A stretch of DNA of 64,000 nt from positions 1,570,001 through 1,634,000 of the forward strand of contig NZ_CP019704.1 in NCBI RefSeq assembly GCF_002005425.1, in the 5' to 3' direction. The first letter of the stretch is position 1. Every line of letters starts with the position of its first letter. The notes under the pieces are model-generated. The model did no database searches. It had not been told where the DNA came from and worked only from the letters and a program-made list of their open reading frames with translations. Source of the stretch: Polaribacter sp. BM10 (GTDB lineage: Bacteria; Bacteroidota; Bacteroidia; Flavobacteriales; Flavobacteriaceae). The position numbers were made by a program, and so were the translations under genes. Positions 3,620 through 21,288 of the stretch are shown piece by piece.

Positions 3620-3794
3620 TATATCTTGTTTATAGTTATAAAGATAGTGGGTTTCTTACAACTGTTAAAACTTAACCGCTTTTAAATTGCATTTTGTAGA
3701 TTTCTTTTCTCTTTTATTTTAAGATGAAAGTTTATTGGACTGCACATTTATAAAAGATAAGTTGTAACTTTCATTTTTAAAACAAAAAAACACT

Positions 3795-4172
3795 ATGGGA
3801 TTATTTAATAAAATACTAGGCAATGCTAGTGAGGTTTCTACTGAAAAATTAACAGAAAAATACCAACGCTTGTTAGTAGACAACGAGCATATAGAACTTG
3901 GTTTTAAATTGTTAAGAGATACGTTTATGTTTACCAACAAACGTTTAATTTTAATAGATGTGCAAGGTTTAACGGGTAGTAAAGTAGAATACAAATCGAT
4001 GCCCTATAAAAGTATTTCTCGGTTTTCTTTAGAAACCTCGGGTACTTTTGATTTGGATGCCGAATTAAAAATTTGGATTTCGAGCGAAAACATTCCTTCT
4101 GTAAGCAAAAAGTTTAACAAAAGTATCGATGTCTACGAGGTACAAAAGTACTTGGCTAGTAAAGTGATGTAG
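3795..4172 (+). CDS. Bacterial PH-domain protein (DUF1696/bPH type)
   Basis: A 125-residue cytosolic protein beginning MGLFNKILGNASEVS, a common start for this family. The core (ELGFKLLRDTFMFTNKRLILIDVQG, quoted here only in part as FMFTNKRLILIDVQ) has the FTNRRLI-like strand pair of bacterial PH domains, followed by KSMPYKSISRFSLETSG and a terminal helix around VYEVQKYLASK. The size equals the usual single-domain family length. No signal peptide or membrane segment is seen. Family members form oligomeric rings in structural studies, but the cellular function is not established. It converges on the small gene at 4262 across a long hairpin. Confidence 0.8.
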   Translation: MGLFNKILGNASEVSTEKLTEKYQRLLVDNEHIELGFKLLRDTFMFTNKRLILIDVQGLTGSKVEYKSMPYKSISRFSLETSGTFDLDAELKIWISSENIPSVSKKFNKSIDVYEVQKYLASKVM

Positions 4173-4218
4173 ATACTGTGCCTACAAAACCTTATTTTTT
4201 ACCTTTCACTACAATTTA

Positions 4219-4255
4219 GTAATACCTCGCCTTTAAAATAAAGGCGAGGTATTAC
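4219..4255. terminator. Long perfect hairpin between convergent genes
   Basis: A 16-bp perfect stem (GTAATACCTCGCCTTT against its complement) with a 5-nt loop AAAAT lies between the PH-domain stop and the stop of the small gene. It lacks a clean T tract on either side, so it may work as a bidirectional terminator or as a 3'-end stabilising structure. Confidence 0.65.
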
Positions 4256-4261
4256 CAATAA

Positions 4262-4405
4262 TTACTTTTTAGAATTCTTTGCGGCTGCACTTTGTGCTCT
4301 TGCTGCAAAACTCCCCTTAGTTACACCTCCAGATTTTGATGCTCCTGCAGTACTACTTTGAATTCTTGAAGCTGCTGCACTTGACATTGATTTTGATTTA
4401 CTCAT
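4262..4405 (-). CDS. 47-residue Ser/Ala/Lys-rich basic protein, seed-maturation-protein-like
   Basis: A short open frame begins with ATG at 4403-4405 and ends with TAA at 4262-4264. The product starts MSKSKSMSSAAASRIQSSTA and ends GSFAARAQSAAAKNSKK. It holds two copies of an Ala-rich motif, AAASRIQSS and FAARAQSAA, separated by a Gly-Lys turn (GGVTKG). It has no Cys, Trp or acidic residue and is strongly basic. The (A)xRIQSxxA pattern resembles the SMP (seed maturation protein) family of small stress-linked proteins; this is a recollection of the family motif, not a search result. Codon use is ordinary and the composition is too biased and orderly to be a shadow frame. It is divergent from the LytS/LytTR pair and probably controlled by it, since three regular repeats lie upstream. 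Confidence 0.75.
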   Translation of the reverse strand: MSKSKSMSSAAASRIQSSTAGASKSGGVTKGSFAARAQSAAAKNSKK

Positions 4406-4453
4406 AATAATTTATTTAAAGTTTTAAGAAGTACTTTACTTCCTTTTACACTT

Positions 4454-4461
4454 CAAAGATG
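4454..4461 (-). promoter_or_regulatory. Possible -7 box of the small basic protein gene
   Basis: Read on the minus strand the sequence is CATCTTTG, one mismatch from the Bacteroidota -7 consensus TAnnTTTG. It lies about 50 nt upstream of the ATG at 4405. No good -33 TTG is found at the expected distance, which would fit a promoter that needs an activator bound at the upstream repeats. Confidence 0.35.
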
Positions 4462-4487
4462 CATAAGATTATAGTTAATATTTCTTG

Positions 4488-4536
4488 TTTGTGACGAAGT
4501 ACTATTATTTGTGATAAAAGCTATCTTTTTTGTGAT
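4488..4536 (+). promoter_or_regulatory. Three direct repeats TTTGTGAY, likely LytTR operator
   Basis: TTTGTGAC at 4488-4495, TTTGTGAT at 4508-4515 and TTTGTGAT at 4529-4536 are spaced 20 and 21 bp, about two helical turns. LytTR-family regulators characteristically bind short direct repeats with a period of about 21 bp, and the gene pair just downstream encodes a LytTR regulator. The site lies between two divergent start codons (4405 minus, 4599 plus), so it could control both the small basic protein and the two-component operon. Confidence 0.6.
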
Positions 4537-4598
4537 TTCTAATTAAACTTCTACAAATATTAGTATTTTAGTTTTCCAAAAAATTGAAACACACCCTA

Positions 4599-5633
4599 AT
4601 GAAAAAGCTTTATGATAAGTTCTTAAATGAACTTGAATATCTTATGGATAATGCCCCTTTTTTCTTAATTATTTTAGCATTATTAATACTTCGTAACCTT
4701 TACAACTACATTATTAAAAGATATTATAAAAGTGAAAATACCGAATTAGAAAACTTAAATAACAAGTTACAAGAAGAAAAAAACTTAAACCAGCAAAAGC
4801 TTAAGAGCTATGAGCATTTAGAAAAAGAAAGTCTTACAAATAAAAATGAATTATTAAAAGTAAAACAAGAACTTACTGAAACGAAAAAGATTTATTTTGA
4901 AAGTTTAAACAAAAAAGAACAAGAAATAGCAAAACATAAAGAAACCAATACGCATCAAAAAAGAACGTATGAAAGATATGTTAATTTTAAAACAGTAGAA
5001 GCAAACAACACTAGATTGGGTGCACATTTTATTAAAAATGTTATTAGCCAGATATATGATGATATAGAGCAAACAGAAAAAAGTTACAAAACCTTTTTAG
5101 GCATTAGCTTTAGTGTTAAAAATACCAAAAGAAAAATACCCCCAATTAAGGCTTTAAAAAACATCTTTAAATTATTAGATTATAATGTTACTGCTTTACA
5201 CAAAGAAAACACTTCTTTAAAAGAAGAACTAGAACACATACACATGTTTTTAGACTTAATTAAATACTTAAAACCAAATACAAACATTCAGTTTAACAAT
5301 ACATTAAAAAGAGAGCAAAACAACACTATTAAAATTAAACCCACACTCTTTTTTCCGTTTGTAGAAAATGCATTAAAACATGGTAACTTAAATAATAAGC
5401 ATTCTTTTATTAGTATTATTTTAAAAGAAAACGAACACAAACAATTAAGCTATTGTTTGGTAAATAGTGCAGAGCAACGATTAAATTATACTACAGAAGT
5501 TACAACACCAACTAGCTTTGGTTTAAATGCCTTGCAACAATTGTTAAACGCTTATTACCCAAAAAGTAAATTAGAACATAAAGCACTACCTAACAACCAA
5601 TATCTATCTGAATTAACACTAAGCCTGCATTAA
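4599..5633 (+). CDS. LytS-type sensor histidine kinase
   Basis: Membrane-anchored kinase of about 344 residues. A TTG lies 15 nt upstream in frame, but ATG at 4599 (MKKLYDKF) is preferred. One hydrophobic helix spans about residues 19-40, followed by a long charged coiled coil to about residue 130 and no obvious extracellular sensor domain. The His_kinase region has LGAHFIKNVISQI with the phospho-accepting His near 143; the usual PHFLFN is altered to AHFIKN, but His and Asn are kept. The N-box FPFVENALKHGN (Asn near 257) and the G-box SFGLNALQQLL complete an ATPase domain. The stop codon abuts the response regulator's ATG, so the two are co-translated. The input is presumably cytoplasmic or within the membrane. 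Confidence 0.88.
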   Translation: MKKLYDKFLNELEYLMDNAPFFLIILALLILRNLYNYIIKRYYKSENTELENLNNKLQEEKNLNQQKLKSYEHLEKESLTNKNELLKVKQELTETKKIYFESLNKKEQEIAKHKETNTHQKRTYERYVNFKTVEANNTRLGAHFIKNVISQIYDDIEQTEKSYKTFLGISFSVKNTKRKIPPIKALKNIFKLLDYNVTALHKENTSLKEELEHIHMFLDLIKYLKPNTNIQFNNTLKREQNNTIKIKPTLFFPFVENALKHGNLNNKHSFISIILKENEHKQLSYCLVNSAEQRLNYTTEVTTPTSFGLNALQQLLNAYYPKSKLEHKALPNNQYLSELTLSLH

Positions 5634-6404
5634 ATGATACGTTATATTTTGGTGGATGACGACCCACAAACTTTAGAAAGAGTTCGAGAAAAAATTGATA
5701 TTATTGCTAAGGATTACGCCCTACAACACGTTAAAAGCTATGATAGTTCTAAAAAGGCTTTTGAAGATATAAACGAACATGATTTTGATTTGTTGATTGT
5801 AGATTTTTATATGCCTGTGTATAATGGTTTAGAATTGGCTAAAAAAGTAGCTACTCATAAAAAAGTTATCTTTTTAACCTCTACCATTAACAATGAGCAA
5901 AAAGTAATTAACCGTTTAGATATTTCTGGATACTTAAGCAAACCTTTTGAACTAGAAGAATTTGAAGCTATTTTAAAAGAGAAGATTCTTGGTAGAGTAA
6001 ACAACCAAAAAATCTATCAAAAAGGCGATTTGGTTATGCTAGCCATCTCTAAAAACAAAAATATTGGTATCTACCCAGAAGACATCTATTTTATTAGTTC
6101 TGCTTTAATAAGTTCTGGACATAAAGTAAAAGACAATAAAAAAGTAAAGGCAGAAAAACCACAAAGTAATCATGTACATTTTTATGGAAAAAATGATATA
6201 ATCGAATTTGAATCTATAAGAATAACGATTAATGATTTGGAATTAAATCTTTATAAGTTTGGTTTTAGAAAAATCAATCAAAGCACCTTAATTAATACCA
6301 ATTACATTAGAAATATAGACAGTCGTAACCTAGAATTATATTATTGTAAAACACCTTTTGAAATTAGTAATAAAGAAAAAACAAGGTTTTTAGAAAATAT
6401 TTAA
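5634..6404 (+). CDS. LytTR-family response regulator
   Basis: The receiver domain (residues 1-118) has the acidic pocket VDDD near the N terminus, the phospho-acceptor Asp57 in LLIVDFYMP, Thr/Ser near 82-84 and Lys103 in YLSKPF. The C-terminal domain (about 135-256) is LytTR: a strand around GIYPEDIYFISSA, then FYGKNDIIEFESIRITIN and FGFRKINQSTLINTNYIRNI, which matches the family's phiRxHRSxlVN-like strand. LytTR domains bind direct repeats in DNA, and three such repeats lie upstream of the partner kinase. The gene is the second of a two-gene operon, directly after the kinase. The receiver residues appear complete, so phosphorylation control is expected. Confidence 0.9.
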   Translation: MIRYILVDDDPQTLERVREKIDIIAKDYALQHVKSYDSSKKAFEDINEHDFDLLIVDFYMPVYNGLELAKKVATHKKVIFLTSTINNEQKVINRLDISGYLSKPFELEEFEAILKEKILGRVNNQKIYQKGDLVMLAISKNKNIGIYPEDIYFISSALISSGHKVKDNKKVKAEKPQSNHVHFYGKNDIIEFESIRITINDLELNLYKFGFRKINQSTLINTNYIRNIDSRNLELYYCKTPFEISNKEKTRFLENI

Positions 6405-6520
6405 TGCCACCATTAATTTTTAACAAGCTAGGGTAACAGGCTATAGATTTTATAAGAGACCTTTAATTTTAAAATAAAAAGATACTACCTTTAAAATAGA
6501 AAAAATATGTATTTATTTGT

Positions 6521-9364
6521 TTAACTATCAACTCCATTAATAAAGGTTTTTACAAAATCTTTTATTTTTTCGGTTATTCTATTACTTATAGTTTCTCTTT
6601 GTAAGACACTTGGTTGTTTTTCTAATGCTTCAATTACCTCATCTTCTGTTGCCATTCTACCTGTAAAAAGAAAATCGTTTATTATATTTTCTACTTTATC
6701 TGGTTTTAATGCTTCTGCTTTACTTAAATTATTCAAAGCTTTTTTAGTTTCTACTTTCCAATAGTCTTTAAATTCACTTTCTATGGTTTCGCTATTATTA
6801 ATTTTAGGTAAGTTATTTTCTATAAATTGTTCTATTAATTCACGTTTACTACGCAGAGTAACATCTCCCGCTAATAAATCTAAAATTTGCTTTTTTTGTT
6901 TTTCTTGGTCTTTTGGTTTGGCATCTTTTAATTGTGCCAATAGCTTCATAATATAAGTAACATTAATCTCGTCTTTGTGAAGTAACTCTATTTCAAAATC
7001 TATTTCGTTTAATATAGATACTTTTTGTTTTTGAGTATTGAACCTAATTTTATCGTTTAACTCTAAGTATTTAGATGAAAAATCTTGAAACTCTTGAGCT
7101 GTCATTGGTACATCATCAAAAGTAAATTCTGTAAAAGAATCTAATATGTTTTTTAAACGCATTATAGCCCTAAATGCTTTCGCAAATTCTAATTCATCTT
7201 CTTCTGTTACTAACTCATTTACGCTATTTGGTGTAGGTGTTAATGCCATTAATCTTGCGTATGCTTCTTCAAAAAACGTTAGCTGCTCTTTATATGGTGC
7301 TATAGTGATGGTTTCTTTTGCTGAAAGATTAGAAAACAAACGTACTGCATCGTCTGTATTCTTTTTTAAGTTACGGAAGGTTACAATATTACCTTGTGAC
7401 TTATTATCGTTTAATATTCTATTGGTACGTGAATAGGCTTGTATTAAACCGTGATATTTAAGGTTTTTATCTACATACAGGGTATTTAATGTTTTACTAT
7501 CGAACCCTGTTAAAAACATATTTACTACTAATAAAATATCTATTTCTTTATCACGTACTCTTTTAGATATATTGGTTTTATAGTTTAAGAAGGCTTTCGC
7601 ATCATTAGCCGAATGTGCTTCGTTAAACATAGTATTATAATCTACAATAAACTCGTCTAATTTATCTCTTACCGATTGGTTTACTGGTGCATCATCTGTT
7701 ACATCTTCTTCTGAAATATTACCATCTATCGTTTCTACTTCTGGATTTGCAGCATACGAAAATATTGTTGCTATTTTATAATTGTGTTCTCCTGCTTCTT
7801 TTTTAGCTTTAAACAGTTCGTAATATTTAATTAATATATCTACACTACTTACACAAAACATTGCAGTAAACTGCCTATTATTGGTTTTGTTAGCGTGATT
7901 TTTAAGTATGTAATTGGTAATGGTTTCTAAATATGCGTCACTTTCATAAACCTCTTGCGTATCTATAGCTTCTACTTTAGTATCTTCTTCATCTTGAATT
8001 TTCTTTTTAAATACATTGTAGTATTCTATTGAAAATTTTAATACATTTTCATCTCTAATAGCATCTGTAATAACGTACTTATGTAGGCAGTCGTGAAATA
8101 GGTTTGCGGTTGTTTGTTTTATACTCTTTACACTTAGTGCATTTTCTTCAAAAATTGGTGTTCCTGTAAATCCGAATAACTGATGATTGGTAAAAAAGTT
8201 TACTATTGCTTTATGTGTTTCTCCAAATTGAGAACGATGACATTCATCAAAAATAAAAATGGTTTTATCGTCTTTAATTCTTTCAATTTGATTTTTAAAC
8301 GCTGTTTTTTTTATGGCAACATTTAATTTTTGAATAGTAGTTACAATTAAAGGTCGTGTAGGATCTAAAAAATGTTTTACTAAGGTTTTAGTATCTTCTG
8401 TACCATCTATACTCTCTTTATCAAAAGCTCTAAATTCTTTTACTGTTTGGTCGTCTAAATCTTGTCTATCTACCACAAACACCACTTTTTTAATTTTAGG
8501 GTTATTGGTTAGTATCTGACTTGCTTTAAACGATGTTAATGTTTTACCAGAACCTGTAGTATGCCATATATAACCGTTTTTATCTGAATTTTTAACTCTA
8601 TCTATAATTGATTCTACGGCATAATACTGATATGGTCTAAGCACCATTAACACTTTATCTTTTTCGTGTAAAACAATATACTTAGTTATCATTTTAGCGA
8701 TATGACAAGGCTCTAAAAAGAGACTTGCAAAGCTATCTAATTGCGTTATTCTTTTATTGGTTTTATCGCTCCAGTAACTTGTAAATTTATAACTAGGCAT
8801 TTTACCTTGTTTAAAGGTATTGGCATAGTATTTTGTGTTTTCGCCATTACTAACTACAAAGAGTTGCACGTAATTAAATAAGGCATTATTAGAAGCAAAA
8901 GATTCTTGTTGGTATCTGCATACTTGCCTATGTGCTTCTTTTAACTCTATACCACGTTTTTTTAATTCTATTTGCACTAATGGCAAGCCGTTTATAAGAA
9001 TAGTAACATCGTAACGGTTTTCTCTTTTACCGTTTATGGTAATTTGATTGGTTACTTGAAACTCGTTTTGACACCAGAAATCTTGATTGATAAACTCTAT
9101 ATATGCTTTCTCTCCGTTGTCTTTATGTAATACATATTTATCTCTTAAAGTTTTAGCTTTATCGAATATATTACCCTTAGAAAGATGTATTAATACGCGC
9201 TCAAACTCAGGAGCTGTAAAGGTTGTTTTGTTATGTTTTTCTAATTGTGATTTTAGATTACTAACTAAATCGTCTTCTGTTTTAATAGTTACAGCTTTAT
9301 GCCCTAAACTAATAAGTTGCGTAATTAAGTTATTTTCTAATACCTGTTCTGGTTGTGTTGTCAT
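6521..9364 (-). CDS. hsdR: Type I restriction enzyme, R subunit
   Basis: ATP-driven DNA translocase and nuclease subunit of a type I restriction-modification complex, 947 residues. The N-terminal nuclease domain shows RYDVTILINGLPLVQIELKK (about 116-135), giving the Asp and Glu-x-Lys of a PD-(D/E)xK site. The superfamily 2 helicase core has Walker A HTTGSGKT near 267-274, the DECH box in IFIFDECHRSQFG near 372, FGFTGTPIF for motif III and YSRTNRILND for motif VI. The C-terminal ~250 residues are helical and probably bind the M2S core. It is the last gene of the leftward hsdM-hsdS-abi-hsdR series and is separated from abi by a perfect hairpin. No truncation is visible. Confidence 0.96.
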   Translation of the reverse strand: MTTQPEQVLENNLITQLISLGHKAVTIKTEDDLVSNLKSQLEKHNKTTFTAPEFERVLIHLSKGNIFDKAKTLRDKYVLHKDNGEKAYIEFINQDFWCQNEFQVTNQITINGKRENRYDVTILINGLPLVQIELKKRGIELKEAHRQVCRYQQESFASNNALFNYVQLFVVSNGENTKYYANTFKQGKMPSYKFTSYWSDKTNKRITQLDSFASLFLEPCHIAKMITKYIVLHEKDKVLMVLRPYQYYAVESIIDRVKNSDKNGYIWHTTGSGKTLTSFKASQILTNNPKIKKVVFVVDRQDLDDQTVKEFRAFDKESIDGTEDTKTLVKHFLDPTRPLIVTTIQKLNVAIKKTAFKNQIERIKDDKTIFIFDECHRSQFGETHKAIVNFFTNHQLFGFTGTPIFEENALSVKSIKQTTANLFHDCLHKYVITDAIRDENVLKFSIEYYNVFKKKIQDEEDTKVEAIDTQEVYESDAYLETITNYILKNHANKTNNRQFTAMFCVSSVDILIKYYELFKAKKEAGEHNYKIATIFSYAANPEVETIDGNISEEDVTDDAPVNQSVRDKLDEFIVDYNTMFNEAHSANDAKAFLNYKTNISKRVRDKEIDILLVVNMFLTGFDSKTLNTLYVDKNLKYHGLIQAYSRTNRILNDNKSQGNIVTFRNLKKNTDDAVRLFSNLSAKETITIAPYKEQLTFFEEAYARLMALTPTPNSVNELVTEEDELEFAKAFRAIMRLKNILDSFTEFTFDDVPMTAQEFQDFSSKYLELNDKIRFNTQKQKVSILNEIDFEIELLHKDEINVTYIMKLLAQLKDAKPKDQEKQKKQILDLLAGDVTLRSKRELIEQFIENNLPKINNSETIESEFKDYWKVETKKALNNLSKAEALKPDKVENIINDFLFTGRMATEDEVIEALEKQPSVLQRETISNRITEKIKDFVKTFINGVDS

Positions 9365-10494: not shown

Positions 10495-11715
10495 CTACAC
10501 AAACATTTGTTGTAACAAGCCTTTTTTAAAGGCTTTACTATTTTCTATTTTAGTATTTAAGGCTTCTATCTTTATATCTATATCAGATAAGAAATTAGCT
10601 ATTTTGGTTTGTTCTTCAATGCAAGGAAATGGAACTTTAAACTTTTTTAAATCACCACCATTAATAGAGTTTATAGTAGCTCCTAAATTTTTATAAACTT
10701 CTTTTTTATAATGTTGACTATCGAAAAAATGAAATAAAAATCGATTATACTTACTGCGATAAACTGTCATAAATGCACCAAATGCTAAACCGATATGCTC
10801 TTCTTTGATAATAGCATTTTTCCCTATCAATCTTTTACTACCATTTCTAACGCAAATTAAAATATCATTCAATTCTACTGGATTGAACTTACCTTCTTCA
10901 ACATTTACAAAAACATTATCATTTAAAGCTATTAATCTCTTTTTTACGTTAGAAGAGCGTAATACCAAAACACCATTTTCATCAATATCATTTGGACTAT
11001 ATGTTAAACCACTTACTATTGAACCAATTACCCCCAACTTCTTCTCTTCCCAATTAGGAAAGGCATTACCATTATCATCTTTAAATCTTAGTTCTTGATT
11101 AAAGATTTTTTGCATTATACCTTTTTTGTATTGCTCTAAAAGGGTTTTCTTTTTGGTTAGTTTGGTAATTTTATCATCTACATCTGTAAGGAATGATGCT
11201 ATTTTTTGTTGTTCTGGAAATTGAGGAAAATTTAATTGAATCTTTCTCAATTCAACCATTGTTAATGCTTTTTGGGTCGAACCAATAGAAGTTTTTATTA
11301 ATTCATTTGTATTTAATTGTATTAATTTCTCTAAGAAATCGCTATTTTCTTTAATATTTTTAAGCCAAATTAAATTACCATCTTTAAAATAAAATGGATT
11401 ATCATCATTAATTTTCCAAACATTGCCTAAAGTTCCAACTGCTGTAACTAAAATATCTTCTTTTTTAGGTACTCCATATTTTTCTTTAAAGTCATTATAT
11501 CTTTCATTAGATATATATAAAATATCTGAAGGGATTGTATTATTTTTTAATTCTGTTATTTCTTTACCTCTAAAAAAAGGTATACCCGCAGGCACATAAT
11601 CTTCAAGATAGACCCTTTTACTTGATGTCATTACACAGATACTACCTAGTTTCTTAGGATGCCATTCACCTTCAAACTCCGGAAACCTCAATTGTGGCAT
11701 TAATTGTTCTTCCAT
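10495..11715 (-). CDS. hsdS: Type I restriction-modification specificity subunit
   Basis: The DNA-recognition subunit of the type I complex, 406 residues. It has the usual two-fold layout: target-recognition domain 1 (about 10-150), a central conserved helix ending near 210 (IASFLTDVDDKITKLTKKK), target-recognition domain 2 (about 215-360) and a C-terminal conserved helix (IANFLSDIDIKIEALNTKI). The two helices are clear repeats of each other, as expected for the spacer arms that contact the M subunits and set the half-site spacing. The N terminus QLRFPEFEGEWHPKKLGSI is typical. It starts 2 nt after the hsdM stop. The recognition sequence cannot be predicted from reading. Both recognition domains look intact. 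Confidence 0.95.
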   Translation of the reverse strand: MEEQLMPQLRFPEFEGEWHPKKLGSICVMTSSKRVYLEDYVPAGIPFFRGKEITELKNNTIPSDILYISNERYNDFKEKYGVPKKEDILVTAVGTLGNVWKINDDNPFYFKDGNLIWLKNIKENSDFLEKLIQLNTNELIKTSIGSTQKALTMVELRKIQLNFPQFPEQQKIASFLTDVDDKITKLTKKKTLLEQYKKGIMQKIFNQELRFKDDNGNAFPNWEEKKLGVIGSIVSGLTYSPNDIDENGVLVLRSSNVKKRLIALNDNVFVNVEEGKFNPVELNDILICVRNGSKRLIGKNAIIKEEHIGLAFGAFMTVYRSKYNRFLFHFFDSQHYKKEVYKNLGATINSINGGDLKKFKVPFPCIEEQTKIANFLSDIDIKIEALNTKIENSKAFKKGLLQQMFV

Positions 11716-11717
11716 AA

Positions 11718-13319
11718 TTAAAAGGGGGTTTTAATATTTAACTCCTCACAATACGAAGAAATACGTTTATCGGTTTCAGCAATATCTACATCTAAAGCTT
11801 GTATTTGTTCTGCTACTGCATTAATATCAATAGGTGCTTCTTCTTCAAAAGTATCTACATAACGTGGTATGTTAAGGTTGTAATCGTTATCAGCTATTTC
11901 TTGTAAAGTTGCTCTGTGGCTGTATTTATCTGTTACCGTTCTATTGGTATAGGTTTCTACAATTTGATTGATATGTTCTGGTAGTAGCTTATTGTCTTTC
12001 CCTTGTTTTGCAAAATGATTAGAAGCATCAATAAACAATACATCTTCGTTAACTTCTCTACATTTTTTGATGACTAAAATACAGGTTGGAATACCTGTAC
12101 CAAAAAAGATGTTTGCAGGTAAACCAATAACGGCATCTATATAATTTCTATCTTCAATTAAATAACGTCTAATATGCGCTTCTGAACTTCCTCTAAATAA
12201 TACACCGTGCGGTAATACGGTTGCCATTATTCCGCTTTCATCTAAGTGATGAATCATATGCTGTACAAATGCAAAATCTGCTTTTGTTTTAGGTGCTAAT
12301 TTACCATACTGACTAAATCTGTCGTCTGTACTAAATATTCCTTTTGCAGACCACTTTGCAGAAAATGGTGGGTTTGCAACAATAGCTTCGGCTTTTAAAT
12401 CGATAGCCATATGTTGAGGTTCTTCTAAGGTATCTTCTTGTTTAATATCGAACTCACGATAATTTACATCGTGTAGTATCATATTCATACGTGCTAAGTT
12501 GTACGTTGTACGGTTTAATTCTTGACCGTAAAACATACCAACATCGTCTACTTCTTTAGCTACACGCAATAGTAATGAACCACTTCCACACGTTGGGTCA
12601 TATACAGATTTTAAACGTTTTTTACGCGTAGTTACTATTTTTGCTAATATGGTAGATACTTCTTGAGGCGTATAAAATTCCCCTGCTTTTTTTCCTGCAC
12701 TTGCAGCAAACTGCCCAATTAGAAACTCATAAGCATCCCCTAATAAATCACTGTCATTATCCTCTAACCTAAAATCAATTTCATCTAAATGTGTGATGAT
12801 TTTTGCAATCGTTTCATTTTGAGCTTTTACAGTTCTTCCTAACTTACCAGAAGTTAAATCTAAATCTTCAAATAGTTTTACAAAATCATCTTCAGATTCT
12901 GTACCCATGGTACTTTGTTCTATATTGGTAAGAATACGCTCTAAGTCTTCAATAATAAAGAATTGCTTTGCTTCGTCATTATCGTTGGTTACTATTTCTG
13001 AAAGGTTATTTCCTTTTTGAGCAATAGAGGTAAATAATTCACTTGGTTTTAAGAAGTAACCTAACTCTTTTACGCAGGCTTTTTTAACTGCTTCAACATA
13101 TATTTTACCATTTTCTGAATTTTCATCTAACTGCTCATAAGTTAAACCATCTGGTGCTAATATTTTATTAGCGTATAAGTGTAACTTCTCTGAAAGGTAT
13201 TTAAAGAATATAAAGCCCAAGATGTAGTTTCTGTAATCGTCAGCATCCATTTTGCCACGTAATAGGTTGGCAATAGCCCATAATTGTTTTTCGAGTAGTT
13301 TTTTTTGTTCTTCTGACAT
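11718..13319 (-). CDS. hsdM: Type I restriction-modification methyltransferase subunit
   Basis: An N6-adenine DNA methyltransferase of 533 residues, first gene of the locus. An N-terminal helical HsdM_N region (1-150) is followed by the catalytic domain. Motif I DPTCGSGSLLLRV lies near 241-253 (SAM binding) and motif IV NPPF near 316-319 in IVANPPFSAKW (catalysis), which together define an N6-adenine enzyme. The C-terminal part (ILVIKKC and following) is the usual tail for HsdS contact. The downstream hsdS begins 2 nt after its stop, so the two are coupled. Upstream lies a repeat-rich 306-bp gap with no other gene. Length and motifs are normal and no damage is seen. Confidence 0.97.
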   Translation of the reverse strand: MSEEQKKLLEKQLWAIANLLRGKMDADDYRNYILGFIFFKYLSEKLHLYANKILAPDGLTYEQLDENSENGKIYVEAVKKACVKELGYFLKPSELFTSIAQKGNNLSEIVTNDNDEAKQFFIIEDLERILTNIEQSTMGTESEDDFVKLFEDLDLTSGKLGRTVKAQNETIAKIITHLDEIDFRLEDNDSDLLGDAYEFLIGQFAASAGKKAGEFYTPQEVSTILAKIVTTRKKRLKSVYDPTCGSGSLLLRVAKEVDDVGMFYGQELNRTTYNLARMNMILHDVNYREFDIKQEDTLEEPQHMAIDLKAEAIVANPPFSAKWSAKGIFSTDDRFSQYGKLAPKTKADFAFVQHMIHHLDESGIMATVLPHGVLFRGSSEAHIRRYLIEDRNYIDAVIGLPANIFFGTGIPTCILVIKKCREVNEDVLFIDASNHFAKQGKDNKLLPEHINQIVETYTNRTVTDKYSHRATLQEIADNDYNLNIPRYVDTFEEEAPIDINAVAEQIQALDVDIAETDKRISSYCEELNIKTPF

Positions 13320-13626: not shown

Positions 13627-14010
13627 CTAGGTTGTTCTAGAAAACTTTAAGTTTTTAAGCATCGTTCTTAACTTTACCGCAGGTCTAAAAAGAATGCGTG
13701 TATTGGTAATGCCTTCTGCAGAAACTTCTCCTTCTGTTTCAAATCCTTTCGAGCTTAAACTTATTTGAAAGTTTCCTAATTTACCCAAACGCACAATACG
13801 TCCTTGTTTTAACTCTCTAATAATATTTACCTCTAAGATGTTTAACAGCGACAAACAATCACTTTCCGACAGTGCCGATTGTTCAGAAATCATTTCTGCT
13901 AACGTTTCAAAATCTACGCTACCATTGGCAACTACAGCTGCGTAATATTTTGCGTCTAATGTTCTATCTTGAGGATTTTTCCTCTCTATTGTCTTAAATT
14001 TTATCGACAT
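13627..14010 (-). CDS. HU/IHF-family DNA-binding protein (HU-HIG, Bacteroidota type)
   Basis: A 127-residue nucleoid-type protein. It has the extended Bacteroidota form: an N-terminal strand segment (SIKFKTIERKNPQD), the helical dimerisation part (DFETLAEMISEQSALSESD and LLNILEVNIIRELKQGRIV) and the LGKLGNFQISLSSKG hairpin entering the DNA-binding arm, followed by TRILFRPAVKLRTMLKNL. Such paralogues are common in flavobacteria and may act as architectural proteins. It is monocistronic with its own terminator. The upstream region begins with one arm of an 18-bp inverted repeat, which may be part of its promoter. Family assignment is good; specific role unknown. Confidence 0.85.
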   Translation of the reverse strand: MSIKFKTIERKNPQDRTLDAKYYAAVVANGSVDFETLAEMISEQSALSESDCLSLLNILEVNIIRELKQGRIVRLGKLGNFQISLSSKGFETEGEVSAEGITNTRILFRPAVKLRTMLKNLKFSRTT

Positions 14011-14808: not shown

Positions 14809-15696
14809 ATGAACAAGTACCTAGAAATTTTTAAAAACTCGTATTCCGATTATTGGAACTACATCAAACAATCGGTTCTTTTAGAACTGAATTGGGAGAA
14901 TTATTTCTACGGATTGATTCTAATTTCTTTACTTGTTTGGGGTTTAGAGGCAATTTTTCCTTGGCGCAAGCACCAGTCTTTGTTTCGAAAAGATTTTTGG
15001 TTAGATACATTTTACATGTTTTTTAATTTCTTTTTATTAAACTTATTGGTTTTGATTGCATTGTCGAATGCCGCTGCCGCAATTTTTAATGATATTTTAG
15101 GCGTTGTAGGGTTGTCTATTGCCAATTTTCAGGTCTTAGAACTCAATACCTTGCCGTTTGCTTTGCGCATTTTTATCTTTTTTATTGTAATTGATTTTGT
15201 GCAATGGTGCACGCACAGATTATTGCATCGTTTCGAGTTTCTGTGGAATTTTCATAAGGTACACCACTCGGTTAAAGAAATGGGCTTTGCAGCGCATTTA
15301 CGTTACCATTGGATGGAGCCCGTAGTGTACAATTCTTTAAAATACATTCCGTTAGCCATTATTGGTGGTTTTACCGCACAAGATGTGGCATTTGTTCATT
15401 TTTTTAATATTACCATTGGGCATTTAAACCATGCGAATATCAATTGGGATTATGGCTGGTTAAAGTACATTTTAAACAACCCAAAAATGCACATTTGGCA
15501 TCATGCAAAAGTATTGCCAGAAGATCGCAAGCAAGGGGTAAACTTCGGAATTACATTAAGCATTTGGGATTATCTTTTTAAAACGAATTACATACCACAT
15601 TCTGGTAGAGACATCGAAATTGGTTTTGAGGGTGACGAGCAGTTTCCGAAAGGGTTTGTACAACAGGAGTTGTATCCTTTTAGTAAAAGGGATTAG
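14809..15696 (+). CDS. Sterol desaturase / fatty acid hydroxylase family membrane protein
   Basis: An integral-membrane di-iron oxygenase of 295 residues. Hydrophobic spans lie near 33-50, 65-100 and 120-135. The histidine clusters expected for the two irons are present: HRLLHR (136-141), HKVHH (149-153), HLNHAN (205-210) and HIWHH (228-232). These enzymes hydroxylate or desaturate lipid chains or sterol-like molecules; the substrate is not visible here. The family is common in flavobacteria for hydroxylated lipids and carotenoids. A TAATTTTG box about 100 nt upstream may be its promoter. The tandem repeat array begins about 70 bp after its stop. Confidence 0.9.
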   Translation: MNKYLEIFKNSYSDYWNYIKQSVLLELNWENYFYGLILISLLVWGLEAIFPWRKHQSLFRKDFWLDTFYMFFNFFLLNLLVLIALSNAAAAIFNDILGVVGLSIANFQVLELNTLPFALRIFIFFIVIDFVQWCTHRLLHRFEFLWNFHKVHHSVKEMGFAAHLRYHWMEPVVYNSLKYIPLAIIGGFTAQDVAFVHFFNITIGHLNHANINWDYGWLKYILNNPKMHIWHHAKVLPEDRKQGVNFGITLSIWDYLFKTNYIPHSGRDIEIGFEGDEQFPKGFVQQELYPFSKRD

Positions 15697-15765
15697 TTGG
15701 TTGCTATCGGTTAGAATGGTTTCTAGTTAAAGGAAATTGTATCGAGAATTCTTTTTTTTCTATCA

Positions 15766-17640
15766 TTCTTTTTCATTGATGAAAAGAACCAAAAATCTAG
15801 ACGGACTTTTAAATTTCTTGAATTCTACTTTTTAATCTAGTATCGCATCCAGACCACTCCGTTTTTTGGATGCTTGCCGTTACTTACAATTTGAATTCTT
15901 ACAAAATTTAAAATAGGTCGGTGCTGTATGTTATCATGATTCTTTTGCCTCACTTAACTTGTCTTTCTTCTTGTTTCTGTGCTCTCTTTTCTCCTCTCTT
16001 ATTCTTTTCCATTGATGAAAAGAATCAAAAATCTAGACGTACTTTTAAATTTCTTAAATTCTACTTTGTAATCCACTATCGCATCCAGACCACTCCGTTT
16101 TTTGGATGCTTGCCGTTACTTACAATTTGAATTCTTACAAAATTTAAAATAGGTCGGTGCTGTATGTTATCATGATTTGCTTTTCTTGACTCTTGTTTCT
16201 TGTCTCTTATCTCTTCACTCATTTTTTTTTCTTCCCTATTCTTTTCCATTGATGAAAAGAACCAAAAATCTAGACGTACTTTTAAATTTCTTGAATTCTA
16301 CTTTGTAATCCACTATCGCATCCAAACCACTGCGTTTTTTTGGATGCTTGCCGTTACTTACAATTTGAATTCTTACAAAATTTAAAATAGGTCGGTGCTG
16401 TATGTTATCATGATTCTCTTGCCTCACTTAACTTGTCTTTCTTCTTGTTTCTGTGCTCTCTTTTCTCCTCTCTCATTCTTTTCCATTGATGAAAAGAATC
16501 AAAAATCTAGACGTACTTTTAAATTTCTTGAATTCTACTTTGTAATCCACTATCGCATCCAGACCATTCCGTTTTTTGGATGCTTGCCGTTACTTACAAT
16601 TTGAATTCTTACAAAATTTAAAATAGGTCGGTGCTGTGTGTTATCATGATTCTTTTGCCTCACTTAACTTGTCTTTCTTCTTGTTTCTATGCTCTCTTTT
16701 CTCCTCTCTCATTCTTTTCCATTGATGAAAAGAACCAAAAATCTAGACGTACTTTTAAATTTCTTGAATTCTACTTTGTAATCCACTATCGCATCCAAAC
16801 CACTGCGTTTTTTTGGATGCTTGCCGTTACTTACAATTTGAATTCTTACAAAATTTAAAATAGGTCGGTGCTGTATGTTATCATGATTCTCTTGCCTCAC
16901 TTAACTTGTCTTTCTTCTTGTTTCTGTGCTCTCTTTTCTCCTCTCTCATTCTTTTCCATTGATGAAAAGAATCAAAAATCTAGACGTACTTTTAAATTTC
17001 TTGAATTCTACTTTGTAATCCACTATCGCATCCAGACCATTCCGTTTTTTGGATGCTTGCCGTTACTTACAATTTGAATTCTTACAAAATTTAAAATAGG
17101 TCGGTGCTGTGTGTTATCATGATTCTTTTGCCTCACTTAACTTGTCTTTCTTCTTGTTTCTATGCTCTCTTTTCTCCTCTCTCATTCTTTTCCATTGATG
17201 AAAAGAACCAAAAATCTAGACGTACTTTTAAATTTCTTGAATTCTACTTTGTAATCCACTATCGCATCCAGACCACTCCGTTTTTTGGATGCTTGCCGTT
17301 ACTTACAATTTGAATTCTTACAAAATTTAAAATAGGTCGGTGCTGTGTGTTATCATGATTTCCTTTTCTTGACTCTTGTCTCTCTTCTCTTATCTCTTCA
17401 CTCATTTTTTTTTCTTCCCTATTCTTTTCCATTGATGAAAAGAACCAAAAATCTAGACGTACTTTTAAATTTCTTAAATTCTACTTTGTAATCCACTATC
17501 GCATCCAGACCACTGCGTTTTTTGGATGCTTGCCGTTACTTACAATTTGAATTCTTACAAAATTTAAAATAGGTCGGAGCTGTGTGTTATCATGATTTCC
17601 TTTTCTTGACTCTTGTTTCTTGTCTCTTTCCTCTTACCCC
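15766..17640. repeat. Eight-copy tandem array of a 236-237 bp non-coding unit
   Basis: Units begin near 15766, 16002, 16239, 16476, 16712, 16949, 17185 and 17422. Each carries an 8-bp hairpin TTCTTTTC/GAAAAGAA around CATTGAT, the conserved AAAAATCTAGACG segment, a second hairpin GCATCCA/TGGATGC and a conserved tail ending in AAAATAGGTCGG. A pyrimidine-rich stretch of about 70 bp in each unit occurs in two forms: one with TTGCCTCACTTAACTTG, one with TTTTCTTGACTCTTG. Short open frames recur in several units at matching positions but are by-products of the repeat: they differ in frame integrity and lack start signals. The outermost copy on the left is the most diverged, while the centre copies are nearly identical. 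Confidence 0.95.
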
Positions 17641-17832
17641 AAACTCCAATCCCCTCAATTCACAAAATCATCATCTGATAAAATGAACCCGTTTGAATTC
17701 ATACATCAGCAATAAAACCGTTAAATGTTAAGGAAATCTTAAAAAAAATCAAAAAAAAGCCAACTACATCGATTTCGCTTAGTATCTTTAGCAAGAAATT
17801 TTTACTAAAAACTAAAAACAATACCCAAAAAA

Positions 17833-20800
17833 ATGAAGATTAAAAAAGTACTTGTTGCCAATCGCGGTGAAATTGCCATTCGAATTTTTAGAGCCTGTAC
17901 AGAGGTAAATGTAAAAACCGTTGGGGTATACACATTCGAAGATCGCTATTCGTTACACAGGTACAAAGCAGATGAATCGTATCAAATAGGAGAAGACAAT
18001 GCCCCATTAAAGCCGTATTTAGATATCAAAGAAATTATACGAATTGCTTTAAAAAGTGGTGCAGATGCCATACATCCTGGTTATGGTTTTTTATCTGAAA
18101 ATGCAGATTTAGCACAACAATGTGCAGACAATAATATTATTTTTGTGGGACCTAAAGTTGCTGTTTTGCAATCTTTAGGTGATAAAATTATGGCTAAAGA
18201 GGTGGCCGTTTCCAATAACATTCCGGTTATTAAAAGTAACGAAAACCCTTTAGACAGCATCGAAACGGCATTGGATGAAGCCTTAAAAATAGGATATCCT
18301 GTAATGCTAAAAGCAGCCTCTGGTGGTGGCGGAAGAGGTATGCGTGTTATTAGAGAAGCTGCCGAATTAAAAAAAGCGTTTAACGAAAGTAAACGAGAAG
18401 CACTAAATGCCTTTGGAGACGACACTGTTTTTCTAGAAAAATTTGTGCAAAATCCTAAACATATAGAAATACAAATAGTTGCCGATAATTATGGCAATAC
18501 CGTACACTTATTTGAACGCGATTGCTCTGTGCAACGTCGCTACCAAAAAGTAATTGAATTTGCACCTTCTTACAATTTAAAGCAAGCAACAAAAGATGCT
18601 TTGTACAACTACGCTATTACCATTTGTAAGGCGGTAGAGTATAACAATATTGGTACTGTAGAGTTTTTGGTAGATGATGATGGATCTATCTACTTTATAG
18701 AAGTAAACCCAAGAATACAAGTAGAACATACCGTTACAGAGGTTGTTACCAATATCGATTTGGTTAAAACACAATTGTTTATTGCGGGTGGTTATAAATT
18801 AACAGACCAACAGATTAAAATACCGAGTCAAGAGGCGATTAAAATAAATGGCTATGCGTTGCAATGTAGAATTACTACAGAAGATCCGCAGAACGATTTT
18901 AAACCCGATTATGGTGAAATTACTACGTATAGAAGTGCGTCTGGTTTCGGAATTCGATTGGATGCGGGTAGCGTTTACCAAGGTGCCATTATTTCGCCAT
19001 TTTTCGATTCGATGTTGGTAAAAGTTACGGCAAATAGTAGAACTTTAGACGGTGCTTGCAGAAAAGTAAGAAGGGCCATGGCAGAGTTTCGTATTCGTGG
19101 TGTTAAAACCAACATGCCGTTTTTAGATAATATTTTAAAACACGAAACTTTTAGAAAAGGAGATGTTACGGTTAATTTTATTAAAGAAACTCCTGATTTA
19201 TTTGTGTTTAAAGCGCCTAGAAATAGAGCTACCAAATTGGTTACGTATTTGGGCGATGTGATTGTAAATGGTAATGCAGATGTTAAAAAATTAGATACAA
19301 CCAAGAAGTTTATAAAACCTATTGTACCTAAGTTTGATGCCGATGCTGCCTATCTAGAAGGTACAAAAGATAAACTAACAGCATTAGGCCCTGATGCATT
19401 TGCACAATGGTTAAAAGATGAAAAGAAAATTCATTTTACAGATACCACCATGCGCGATGCACACCAAAGTTTACTGGCCACAAGAATGCGAACTTTTGAC
19501 ATGTTAAAAGTTGCAGAAGGATATGCTAAAAACAACCCCAACATTTTTAGTATGGAAGTTTGGGGAGGCGCTACTTTTGATGTTTGCATGCGTTTTTTAC
19601 AAGAAAACCCTTGGGAACGCTTACAATTATTACGCAAAGCAATGCCAAATGTGTTGTTGCAAATGCTACTAAGAGGTTCTAATGGTGTTGGGTACACCGC
19701 ATATCCAGATAATTTAATTGCCAAGTTTGTAGAGCAGTCTTGGGAACATGGCGTTGATATATTCAGAATTTTTGATTCTTTAAACTGGATGCAATCGATT
19801 GCACCTTGTATAGAACATGTTAGAACCAGAACCAATGGATTGGCAGAGGCTTCGATATGCTATACTGGCGATATTCTAAATCCTGAAAACACAAAATACA
19901 ATTTAAAATATTATACTACTTTAGCCAAAGACATCGAAAATGCGGGTGCGCATATTTTGGCAATTAAAGACATGGCAGGTTTGTTAAAACCTTATGCCGC
20001 TTTCGAGTTGGTAAGTGCTTTAAAGCAAACGGTAAATATTCCGATTCACTTACACACACATGACACCTCTTCTATACAAGCAGCTACGTATTTAAAAGCC
20101 ATCGAAGCAGGCGTAGATGTGGTTGATGTTGCTTTGGGTGGTTTGTCTGGTTTAACATCGCAACCCAACTTTAACGCGGTGGTAGAAATGATGAAGTTTA
20201 ACGATAGAGCAAGCGATATTAACATCGATTCTTTAAATGAATATTCTAATTATTGGGAAACCGTAAGAGAGTACTACTACCCTTTTGAGTCTGGCTTAAA
20301 AGCAGGTTCTGGCGAGGTTTTTAAACACGAAATTCCGGGTGGTCAATACTCGAATTTAAAACCGCAAGCGCAAGCACTTGGTTTAGAAGACCGTTTTTAT
20401 GAAATTACCAAAATGTATGCAGACGTTAACTTACTTTTTGGTGATATTGTAAAAGTTACACCAAGTTCTAAAGTTGTTGGCGACATGGCGCAATATTTAG
20501 TAAGTAACAACTTAACAGTACAAGACGTATTAGAGCGTGGCAACACCATCTCTTTTCCGCAGTCTGTTGTAAGTTTCTTTAGAGGCGATTTAGGGCAACC
20601 CGTTGGCGGCTTCCCTAAAGATTTACAAAAACTAATTTTAAAAGACGAACAACCTTATACAGATAGGCCCAATGCCCACATACCACCAATAGATATTGAT
20701 GCCGAGTACAAAGATTTTAAAAAAATATTTGAAAATGATTTAAGCAGACCTATTGATTTTACAGATTTCTTATCGTATAAATTGTATCCGAAGGTATTTA

Positions 20801-21288
20801 CAGAGGCGTACAATAAGCATTTAAAATACGATAGTTTGATTAACCTGCCAACCAAAAACTTTTTCTACGGAATGGAAGTTGGGGAAGAAATTATTGTTGA
20901 GTTAGACAAAGGAAAAACGTTGTTAATTACCTTAGACTCGATTGGAGATGCCAACGAAGAAGGAATGGTTACTGTATACTTTAAGGTAAACGGACAAGGA
21001 AGATCTGTGCAAATAAAAGATACCTCTGTAAAAGTAGAAACCGTACAAAATATAAAAGCAGATAAAGAGAATGCCCGCCAAATAGGTGCGCCATTACAAG
21101 GTTTATTATCTACCATTTTGGTTAAAAAAGGCGATAAAATTGTTAAAAATCAGCCTTTATTTGTTATTGAAGCCATGAAAATGGAAACCACCATTACTGC
21201 CAACGAAGATGCTACTATTAGTGCCCTTATTTTAAAAGAAGGCACATTGGTTAATGCAGAAGACTTGGTCTTACAACTAGAAGGTTAA
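17833..21288 (+). CDS. pyc: Pyruvate carboxylase
   Basis: A biotin-dependent enzyme converting pyruvate, bicarbonate and ATP to oxaloacetate, feeding the TCA cycle. At 1151 residues it is the full-length single-chain form. The biotin carboxylase domain occupies about 1-450, with the ATP-grasp glycine loop ASGGGGRGMR near 163-172 and EVNPRIQVEHTVTE. The carboxyltransferase domain (about 530-820) starts HFTDTTMRDAHQSLLATR, with the metal-binding site LHTHDTSS. The C-terminal biotinyl domain carries EAMKMET with the modified Lys at 1116. No break is seen. A TATCTTTA at 17783-17790 may be the -7 box. It is followed by a hairpin terminator. Confidence 0.97.
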   Translation: MKIKKVLVANRGEIAIRIFRACTEVNVKTVGVYTFEDRYSLHRYKADESYQIGEDNAPLKPYLDIKEIIRIALKSGADAIHPGYGFLSENADLAQQCADNNIIFVGPKVAVLQSLGDKIMAKEVAVSNNIPVIKSNENPLDSIETALDEALKIGYPVMLKAASGGGGRGMRVIREAAELKKAFNESKREALNAFGDDTVFLEKFVQNPKHIEIQIVADNYGNTVHLFERDCSVQRRYQKVIEFAPSYNLKQATKDALYNYAITICKAVEYNNIGTVEFLVDDDGSIYFIEVNPRIQVEHTVTEVVTNIDLVKTQLFIAGGYKLTDQQIKIPSQEAIKINGYALQCRITTEDPQNDFKPDYGEITTYRSASGFGIRLDAGSVYQGAIISPFFDSMLVKVTANSRTLDGACRKVRRAMAEFRIRGVKTNMPFLDNILKHETFRKGDVTVNFIKETPDLFVFKAPRNRATKLVTYLGDVIVNGNADVKKLDTTKKFIKPIVPKFDADAAYLEGTKDKLTALGPDAFAQWLKDEKKIHFTDTTMRDAHQSLLATRMRTFDMLKVAEGYAKNNPNIFSMEVWGGATFDVCMRFLQENPWERLQLLRKAMPNVLLQMLLRGSNGVGYTAYPDNLIAKFVEQSWEHGVDIFRIFDSLNWMQSIAPCIEHVRTRTNGLAEASICYTGDILNPENTKYNLKYYTTLAKDIENAGAHILAIKDMAGLLKPYAAFELVSALKQTVNIPIHLHTHDTSSIQAATYLKAIEAGVDVVDVALGGLSGLTSQPNFNAVVEMMKFNDRASDINIDSLNEYSNYWETVREYYYPFESGLKAGSGEVFKHEIPGGQYSNLKPQAQALGLEDRFYEITKMYADVNLLFGDIVKVTPSSKVVGDMAQYLVSNNLTVQDVLERGNTISFPQSVVSFFRGDLGQPVGGFPKDLQKLILKDEQPYTDRPNAHIPPIDIDAEYKDFKKIFENDLSRPIDFTDFLSYKLYPKVFTEAYNKHLKYDSLINLPTKNFFYGMEVGEEIIVELDKGKTLLITLDSIGDANEEGMVTVYFKVNGQGRSVQIKDTSVKVETVQNIKADKENARQIGAPLQGLLSTILVKKGDKIVKNQPLFVIEAMKMETTITANEDATISALILKEGTLVNAEDLVLQLEG

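Follow-up and report, generated by a model that had tools for sequence, protein, structure and literature searches.

The window, by which we mean the whole 64,000-nucleotide stretch of Polaribacter sp. BM10 DNA analysed here, contains an array of eight tandem units. We propose that the units belong to a family of structured RNA elements of Bacteroidota that is carried in mRNAs, is or once was mobile, and resembles ERIC and BOX in its working; we regard this reading as about evenly poised between right and wrong. Sequence comparisons established the architecture of the element, its covariation, a preferred strand, an orientation relative to genes, and a distribution that is both dispersed and tandem; the function of the element is unproven.

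Tandem Repeats Finder called one array at 15759-17597, with a period of 236, 7.8 copies and 92% matches, and called the same interval at a period of 473 with 94% matches. The landmark ATTGATGAAAAGAA occurred eight times in the array, at spacings of 236, 237, 237, 236, 237, 236 and 237. Each unit (236/237 bp) consists of a two-hairpin core of ~156 bp and a pyrimidine-rich spacer of ~80 bp. The cores (156-157 bp, spanning 15766-17577) were 94-100% identical among the eight units, all of which kept AAAATAGGTCGG. The spacers (80-81 bp) took only two forms, one with CTCACTTAACTTG after units 1, 3, 4, 5 and 6, and the other with TTTTCTTGACTC after units 2, 7 and 8. Folding predicted both hairpins of the unit, and the fold of one unit beat nearly all of 200 shuffles (z -3.26 for DNA plus, -2.94 for RNA plus and -3.35 for RNA minus). 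A sequence-only reading of this DNA had described eight tandem 236-237 bp units with two hairpins each, a pyrimidine-rich stretch varying between two forms, and a position between a fatty-acid-hydroxylase-like gene and pyc; the repeat calls, landmark spacing and predicted folds, the unit-by-unit comparison of the eight spacers, and the ORF coordinates, respectively, bore out these descriptions.

Unit 3 was identical to unit 5, and unit 4 to unit 6, throughout their full lengths, indicating a recent duplication of a 473-bp block of two units. The sequence to the left of unit 1 differs from the spacers and the sequence past unit 8 is of the spacer form; what repeats is the element together with the flank on its right, in the plus-strand view. 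The longest ORF inside the array is 75 aa, and the array was assembled within a single contig of 3,254,403 bases. A standard promoter scan, which does not cover Bacteroidota promoters, gave one weak site per unit (8, as compared with 7.0 expected), and a promoter belonging to the array is not evident. The features of the locus are collected in Table 1. To the left of the array lie ORFs resembling HsdS and HsdM of type I restriction-modification (10495-13319) and a small HU-like ORF (13627-14010); HsdM-like ORFs also lie near element copies in L030 and L038 (all names from sequence).

Table 1. Features of the array and its neighbourhood, in window positions
Feature	Position	Strand	Basis
Fatty-acid-hydroxylase-like gene, left neighbour	14809..15696	+	ORF; name from sequence
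Element copy 1 (hairpin P1 15766-15788; TCTAGAC 15796-15802; long bulged stem; GGTCGG end)	15766..15921	- (working RNA strand inferred)	landmark, unit comparison; strand tests
Element copy 2	16002..16157	-	unit comparison
Element copy 3	16239..16395	-	unit comparison
Element copy 4	16476..16631	-	unit comparison and covariance model match
Element copy 5, identical to copy 3	16712..16868	-	unit comparison
Element copy 6, identical to copy 4	16949..17104	-	unit comparison
Element copy 7	17185..17340	-	unit comparison
Element copy 8	17422..17577	-	unit comparison
Spacer form A	15922..16001; 16396-16475; 16632-16711; 16869-16948; 17105-17184	.	unit comparison
Spacer form B	16158..16238; 17341-17421; from 17578 after copy 8	.	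unit comparison
Stretch upstream of pyc, conserved in array-free G053	17764..17792	+	locus comparison
pyc-like gene, right neighbour	17833..21288	+	ORF; name from sequence

On the plus strand, the element runs from hairpin P1 through the linker CAAAAATC(A/T)AGAC and a long bulged stem closed by GAC...GTC to the end GGTCGG. The P1 loop is CTTGAT or CATTGAT in most copies, and the arm tip is variable, reading CCAGACC...TTTGG in the window's subfamily and AACTCGC...GCTCAAACAG in many others. Some copies have the arm reduced to a short hairpin or enlarged by insertions, with P1, the linker and GGTCG retained. Several subfamilies occur within one genome, and there are internally deleted copies with the base and ends kept. 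Two subfamilies were found adjacent and in opposite orientation in L037 (3833-5700) and in the first 700 bases of L116-L118, and composite two-subfamily repeats of this kind stand at contig ends in G025.

Compensated double changes were found in 19 of the 40 predicted pairs among 20 diverse copies. We further analysed the pairing between the P1 loop and the linker, for which 364 hits yielded 235 parsed copies distinct by locus and 125 non-redundant ones; copies without a parsable hairpin and linker were dropped, and a variant in G017 (loop CTTGTC, linker GACACT) lay outside the pattern. The outer pair was Watson-Crick in 121 of the 125 copies, as compared with 100.6 expected, a value reached by none of 5000 shuffles, and the next pair in 112 of 125, as compared with 106.7 expected (6 of 5000 shuffles); these shuffles ignore the relatedness of the copies, and the third pair is fixed by the search pattern. 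A switch of the outer pair from T-A to C-G was seen both in the CTTGAT background (CTTGAC/GTCAAG, one copy) and in the CATTGAT background (CATTGAC/GTCTAG), with the second pair switched as well in CATTGCC/GGCTAG. There were exceptions: CATTGCC/GTC and CATTGCT/ATC break the second pair, and the first pair is broken in single copies. The loop-linker covariation supports a predicted pseudoknot at the base of the element.

The two strands were compared by the changes that the structure tolerates. In paired columns, changes leaving A-C on the plus strand, that is G-U on the minus strand, numbered 73, as compared with 35 leaving G-U on the plus strand; the like change types in unpaired columns numbered 71 and 91 (Fisher p 1.8e-4 for paired against unpaired). 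This count took single changes per column in ten clusters of similar copies, nine of which lean to the minus strand with one tied. The p value rose to 7.5e-4 when the largest cluster was left out, to 1.3e-3 when the structure was taken from the opposite strand, and to 6.6e-3 when both changes were made. An initial strand test on alignment A1 was undecided (G-U 28, of which 20 in one column, versus A-C 12). The shuffle-corrected z was slightly better on plus (mean -3.77 versus -3.30, in 45 of 70 sequences, p 0.004), and the raw folding energy was lower on minus in 60 of 70 sequences. The tolerance of G-U on the minus strand, together with the mRNA-sense orientation bias described below, points to the minus strand of the window as the probable working RNA. 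A series of structured RNAs had been among the possibilities raised by the sequence-only reading; the evidence favours it in modified form, the units being copies of a dispersed family and the RNA probably lying on the opposite strand.

Elsewhere in its own genome, the element is represented by a single good copy, located at 242 kb, and by a weak match of 75 bases. A search for the unit in other flavobacterial genomes, which had been proposed as a check, was run and found relatives by blastn in 23 of 58 genus genomes. A covariance model trained on 20 diverse copies found the element in 32 of the 58, at up to 23 copies per genome, and in 22 of 120 family genomes sampled at one per genus (own genome counted in all three figures). 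A pattern covering the first hairpin with its linker matched at least 116 stretches in named records, and the matches listed include Tenacibaculum, Polaribacter, Flavicella, Riemerella, Sphingobacterium, Mucilaginibacter, Taibaiella, Saprospiraceae and Bacteroidales. The covariance model was run on 80 of these at least 116 stretches and on five from viral contigs; 62 of the 80 matched at E <0.01, from 170 bits down to ~33, the pattern and the model being non-independent evidence. The closest named matches among the loci given to the model were from Polaribacter (L171, L195). A strict 20-base pattern occurred in only 3 of 395 phylum genomes, all in the own genus, so that phylum-wide here means sporadic. 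By these searches, the family is thus widespread in Bacteroidota yet sporadic, and the sporadic distribution argues against an essential role.

Most copies are intergenic, and single copies made up 124 of the 149 arrays kept in the orientation count described below. An earlier suggestion of a satellite-like repeat therefore fits the local tandem amplification and fails for the element itself. A search of the array against Rfam release 15 at E up to 10 gave one match, of 13.4 bits against a threshold of 50; at the gathering thresholds, 15 loci with relatives gave one match, to Acido-Lenti-1 (L165 5849-5894), outside the element. No blastn match to the element was found in plasmid and phage collections. 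The pattern found five stretches in viral contigs, three of them with one common sequence lacking the fold, and the best model match among these stretches was L247 (E 0.011). No description of the element was found in the literature, as judged from titles and the openings of abstracts, subscription papers being mostly outside this scope. Two loci in records titled Desulfobacterota bacterium AH_259_B03_O07 (L179, L186) carry the hairpin-linker motif, with model E values of 0.052 (cut off) and 3.6e-4, which may reflect either transfer out of Bacteroidota or wrong assignment. In L045, an element copy (3643-3856) stands directly before a Cas9-like ORF (4093-7479; name from sequence).

Among 30 hydroxylase loci of the genus compared with 1.5 kb flanks, only the window and G042 contain the element. 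In G042, the hydroxylase gene is followed by a single element and then by a different gene. In G053, hydroxylase and pyc lie ~110 bp apart without the element, and the stretch directly before pyc, perhaps the pyc promoter, is conserved with the window; a check for a target-site duplication at this array-free locus found the alignable flank too short to place the insertion point. Four other hydroxylase loci carry another dispersed repeat and another gene in place of the array. In L250, L253 and L261, a dispersed palindromic repeat other than the element (GTCATTTCGAG... / ...GGTCGAAATGAC or close to this) occupies the gap that follows the hydroxylase gene, where the window has its array.

The conservation of the element was compared with that of its neighbours at six shared loci (eight pairs). 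The element was 96.9% identical between G043 and G000, as compared with 72.9, 86.9 and 85.1% for the neighbouring genes, and 95.1% between G055 and G022, as compared with 86.5 and 87.6% for the flanks. Between G034 and G038 (L040/L042), the element was 93-94% identical, as compared with 91.2 and 85.6%. Both pairs at the L039/L043/L011 locus gave 94.4% for the element, with 25-26 gap positions, the genes of L039/L043 being at 94.8, 95.7 and 77.9%. The element was 85.6% identical between G021 and G009, with flanks between 67 and 89%; between G021 and G015 it was 71.2% identical and less conserved than its neighbours, and between G042 and the window 72-74%, as compared with 79.3% for the gene. 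The element is thus clearly better conserved than its neighbours at two of the six loci only; the other four showed no clear excess, and at two of them the element was less conserved in at least one pair.

The orientation relative to genes was counted in 149 of 248 arrays. We dropped 65 arrays that were not flanked on each side by a neighbour, 20 duplicates, 13 in which a gene lay more than 1200 bp away and 1 in an ORF; some orthologous loci from different species remain among the 149. The gaps were co-directional in 105, convergent in 30 and divergent in 14. In the co-directional gaps, 78 of 105 arrays had the minus reading in the sense of the mRNA (p 6e-7), namely 45 of 59 at loci from the genus and family, and 33 of 46 at loci from other Bacteroidota. 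Two earlier counts, filtered differently, stood at 42 to 11 and 31 to 13, the latter from 70 of 117 arrays (46 at locus ends and 1 inside an ORF left out). The bias was present in single copies (65 of 84, or 65 to 19) and absent in arrays of at least 3 copies (6 to 6), the difference between these classes having a Fisher p of 0.07. Both 8-copy arrays, the window's and one in G029, are in the minority orientation. The array in the window may therefore be a mere by-product without effect on pyc or its neighbour. Distances to the flanking genes were not tightly constrained, with medians of 152 and 202 bp, and do not fit a precise cis-regulatory position. In G157 and G153, copies lie between consecutive histidine- and methionine-pathway-like genes (names from sequence).

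A possible though doubtful explanation is that the element is a selfish non-autonomous mobile repeat of the MITE or REP kind, in which the fold would serve movement, the orientation bias would reflect tolerance of insertions, and the host would gain no function. The several subfamilies per genome, the internally deleted copies, the sporadic distribution and the fact that copies adjoin other dispersed repeats are all in keeping with this. So is one metagenome-assembled genome, the copies of which have a longer left part in common and at least two of which (L175 and L192) have imperfect inverted ends resembling CTGATGTTAC / GTAACATCAG, ~260 bp apart and with at most 1 and 3 mismatches of 10; that lineage may thus use a transposase in trans. 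However, the inverted ends were found in this genome only. Terminal inverted repeats are not apparent in the window, and the right end runs off the contigs in G025. In addition, no partner was found among the families searched (Y1, RVT_1, Y2 and Phage_integrase). The Y1 (RAYT) transposase had no match in seven genomes with copies (G000, G001, G017, G029, G032, G042 and G043, of which G000 has 9, G001 5 and G029 23), and the element is accordingly not assigned to REP/RAYT; matches were present in G009, G028, G034, G038 and G047, which also have copies. Reverse transcriptase (PF00078) had no match in five copy-bearing genomes (G000, G009, G028, G029 and G042) and one match each in G001, G034, G038 and G047, arguing against a retroelement or retron RNA. 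The Y2 transposase (PF04986) was matched nowhere, controls included, and is uninformative. Selection for pairing more on one strand, and the two orthologous copies that outlast neighbouring genes in sequence, also weigh against a purely selfish repeat. We consider it very improbable that the element is a single-stranded-DNA recombination site like integron attC, with the array as a row of empty cassettes, even though a folded site with a conserved base and variable tip, a direct tandem arrangement and a same-orientation cluster over ~85 kb in G029 would agree with it. The nearest of the 8 integrase matches in the own genome, all of them outside the window, is ~53 kb away from the array, and one match in G029 lies ~3 kb from a single element copy. 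However, tyrosine recombinase numbers do not track element numbers: Phage_integrase matches, which do not separate integron-type integrases, numbered 6, 6 and 5 in G029, G009 and G047, which have 23, 17 and 14 copies, and ranged from 5 to 94 in eight genomes where no element was detected. The genes between copies, moreover, look ordinary and run in both directions. The attC boxes were judged without a model. G013 and G056, of the same genus and without a detected element, have 40 and 94 tyrosine-integrase matches, many alike; those in G013 recur at regular intervals of ~7.3 or 9.4 kb, Y1 transposase matches recurring along with them, and both genomes contain apparent tandem arrays of 7-9 kb mobile units.

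The setting aside of CRISPR and of integron cassettes in the sequence-only reading was reasonable. CRISPR repeats are about 20-50 bp with unique spacers, whereas the unit here is 236/237 bp with only two spacer forms. A transcription terminator, bidirectional or acting in the minus reading and carried at gene ends, would account for the smaller number of copies in divergent than in convergent gaps (14 versus 30 of 149) and for the long stem followed by a U-rich linker on the minus strand. It is nevertheless quite unlikely, since copies lie inside apparent histidine- and methionine-synthesis-like operons, the U-rich linker borders the covarying pseudoknot, and the distance to gene ends is loose; a standard scan found no terminator in the array, a weak result because the scan was limited to loops of 3-8 and one was expected by chance. 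The regular 236/237-bp spacing would suit a DNA array binding a chromosome-organising protein, as had also been proposed, but other arrays are spaced differently, most copies are single, and the structure is kept via double changes and not by fixed sequence alone. With one other good copy in the own genome, and with copies in both orientations on one chromosome in G029, that proposal found no support and is hardly credible.

We prefer the hypothesis of an mRNA-borne structured RNA. In the minus reading, the element would form a long bulged hairpin, then GUC-UAGA-UUUUUGG, then a terminal hairpin, whose loop would pair back to the linker as a pseudoknot. Copies would be co-transcribed with neighbouring genes, and the fold may alter mRNA processing or decay between or after cistrons. 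The element would have spread as a repeat that is or once was mobile. The array in the window arose by tandem amplification of the element with its 3' flank, the latest step being the two-unit block duplication. A further speculation, unlikely in our estimation, is that a putative Bacteroidota factor binds the constant base (pseudoknot and closing stem) while the arm is free to change, that hosts have repeatedly adopted copies as working parts of mRNAs, and that tandem arrays serve as multi-copy ligands or decoys.

If true, the proposal would add a new set of candidate mRNA elements, from bacteria that matter both in the sea and in animals. A Bacteroidota family with a covarying pseudoknot, evidence on the selected strand and some orthologous copies longer-lasting than the genes beside them would also provide a test of the taming of repeats for gene control. 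Small structured repeats are best known from enterobacteria, streptococci and Neisseria (PMC2229807, PMC3049150). The comparisons that follow liken by description, and we do not claim membership in ERIC, BOX or other known families. REPs, which the element resembles in being palindromic, intergenic and repeated, are 20-40 bp (PMC3733652), and differ from it in this size and in that no Y1 was detected in several copy-bearing genomes here. The BrickBuilt MITE of Porphyromonas gingivalis is likewise an intergenic tandem-unit repeat in Bacteroidota, but its units are of 23 bp and stand without spacers between a leader and a tail (PMC4596501). STAXI shares the tandem pseudoknots, may act as single-stranded DNA or RNA, and adjoins DNA-processing genes (PMC2864571), whereas no common neighbour was noticed for the element here, without a count over the family. 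BOX of Streptococcus pneumoniae has constant ends and a middle that may be missing or repeated, folds when transcribed, and has a middle module with an orientation-dependent effect (PMC3049150). The element shares this modular build, with constant ends, a changeable middle and an RNA fold; however, BOX multiplies its inner module, while here the whole element is multiplied with its flank, in another phylum. ERIC is intergenic, folds when transcribed, has an orientation-dependent effect on mRNA stability, and bears 7-bp terminal repeats with TA at both ends and a target duplication (PMC2229807). The element differs from ERIC in its pseudoknot, variable arm and tandem arrays, the likeness being one of description and not of sequence, and agrees with it in being intergenic, about 100-200 bp long, strongly folded as RNA, and without a transposase of its own.
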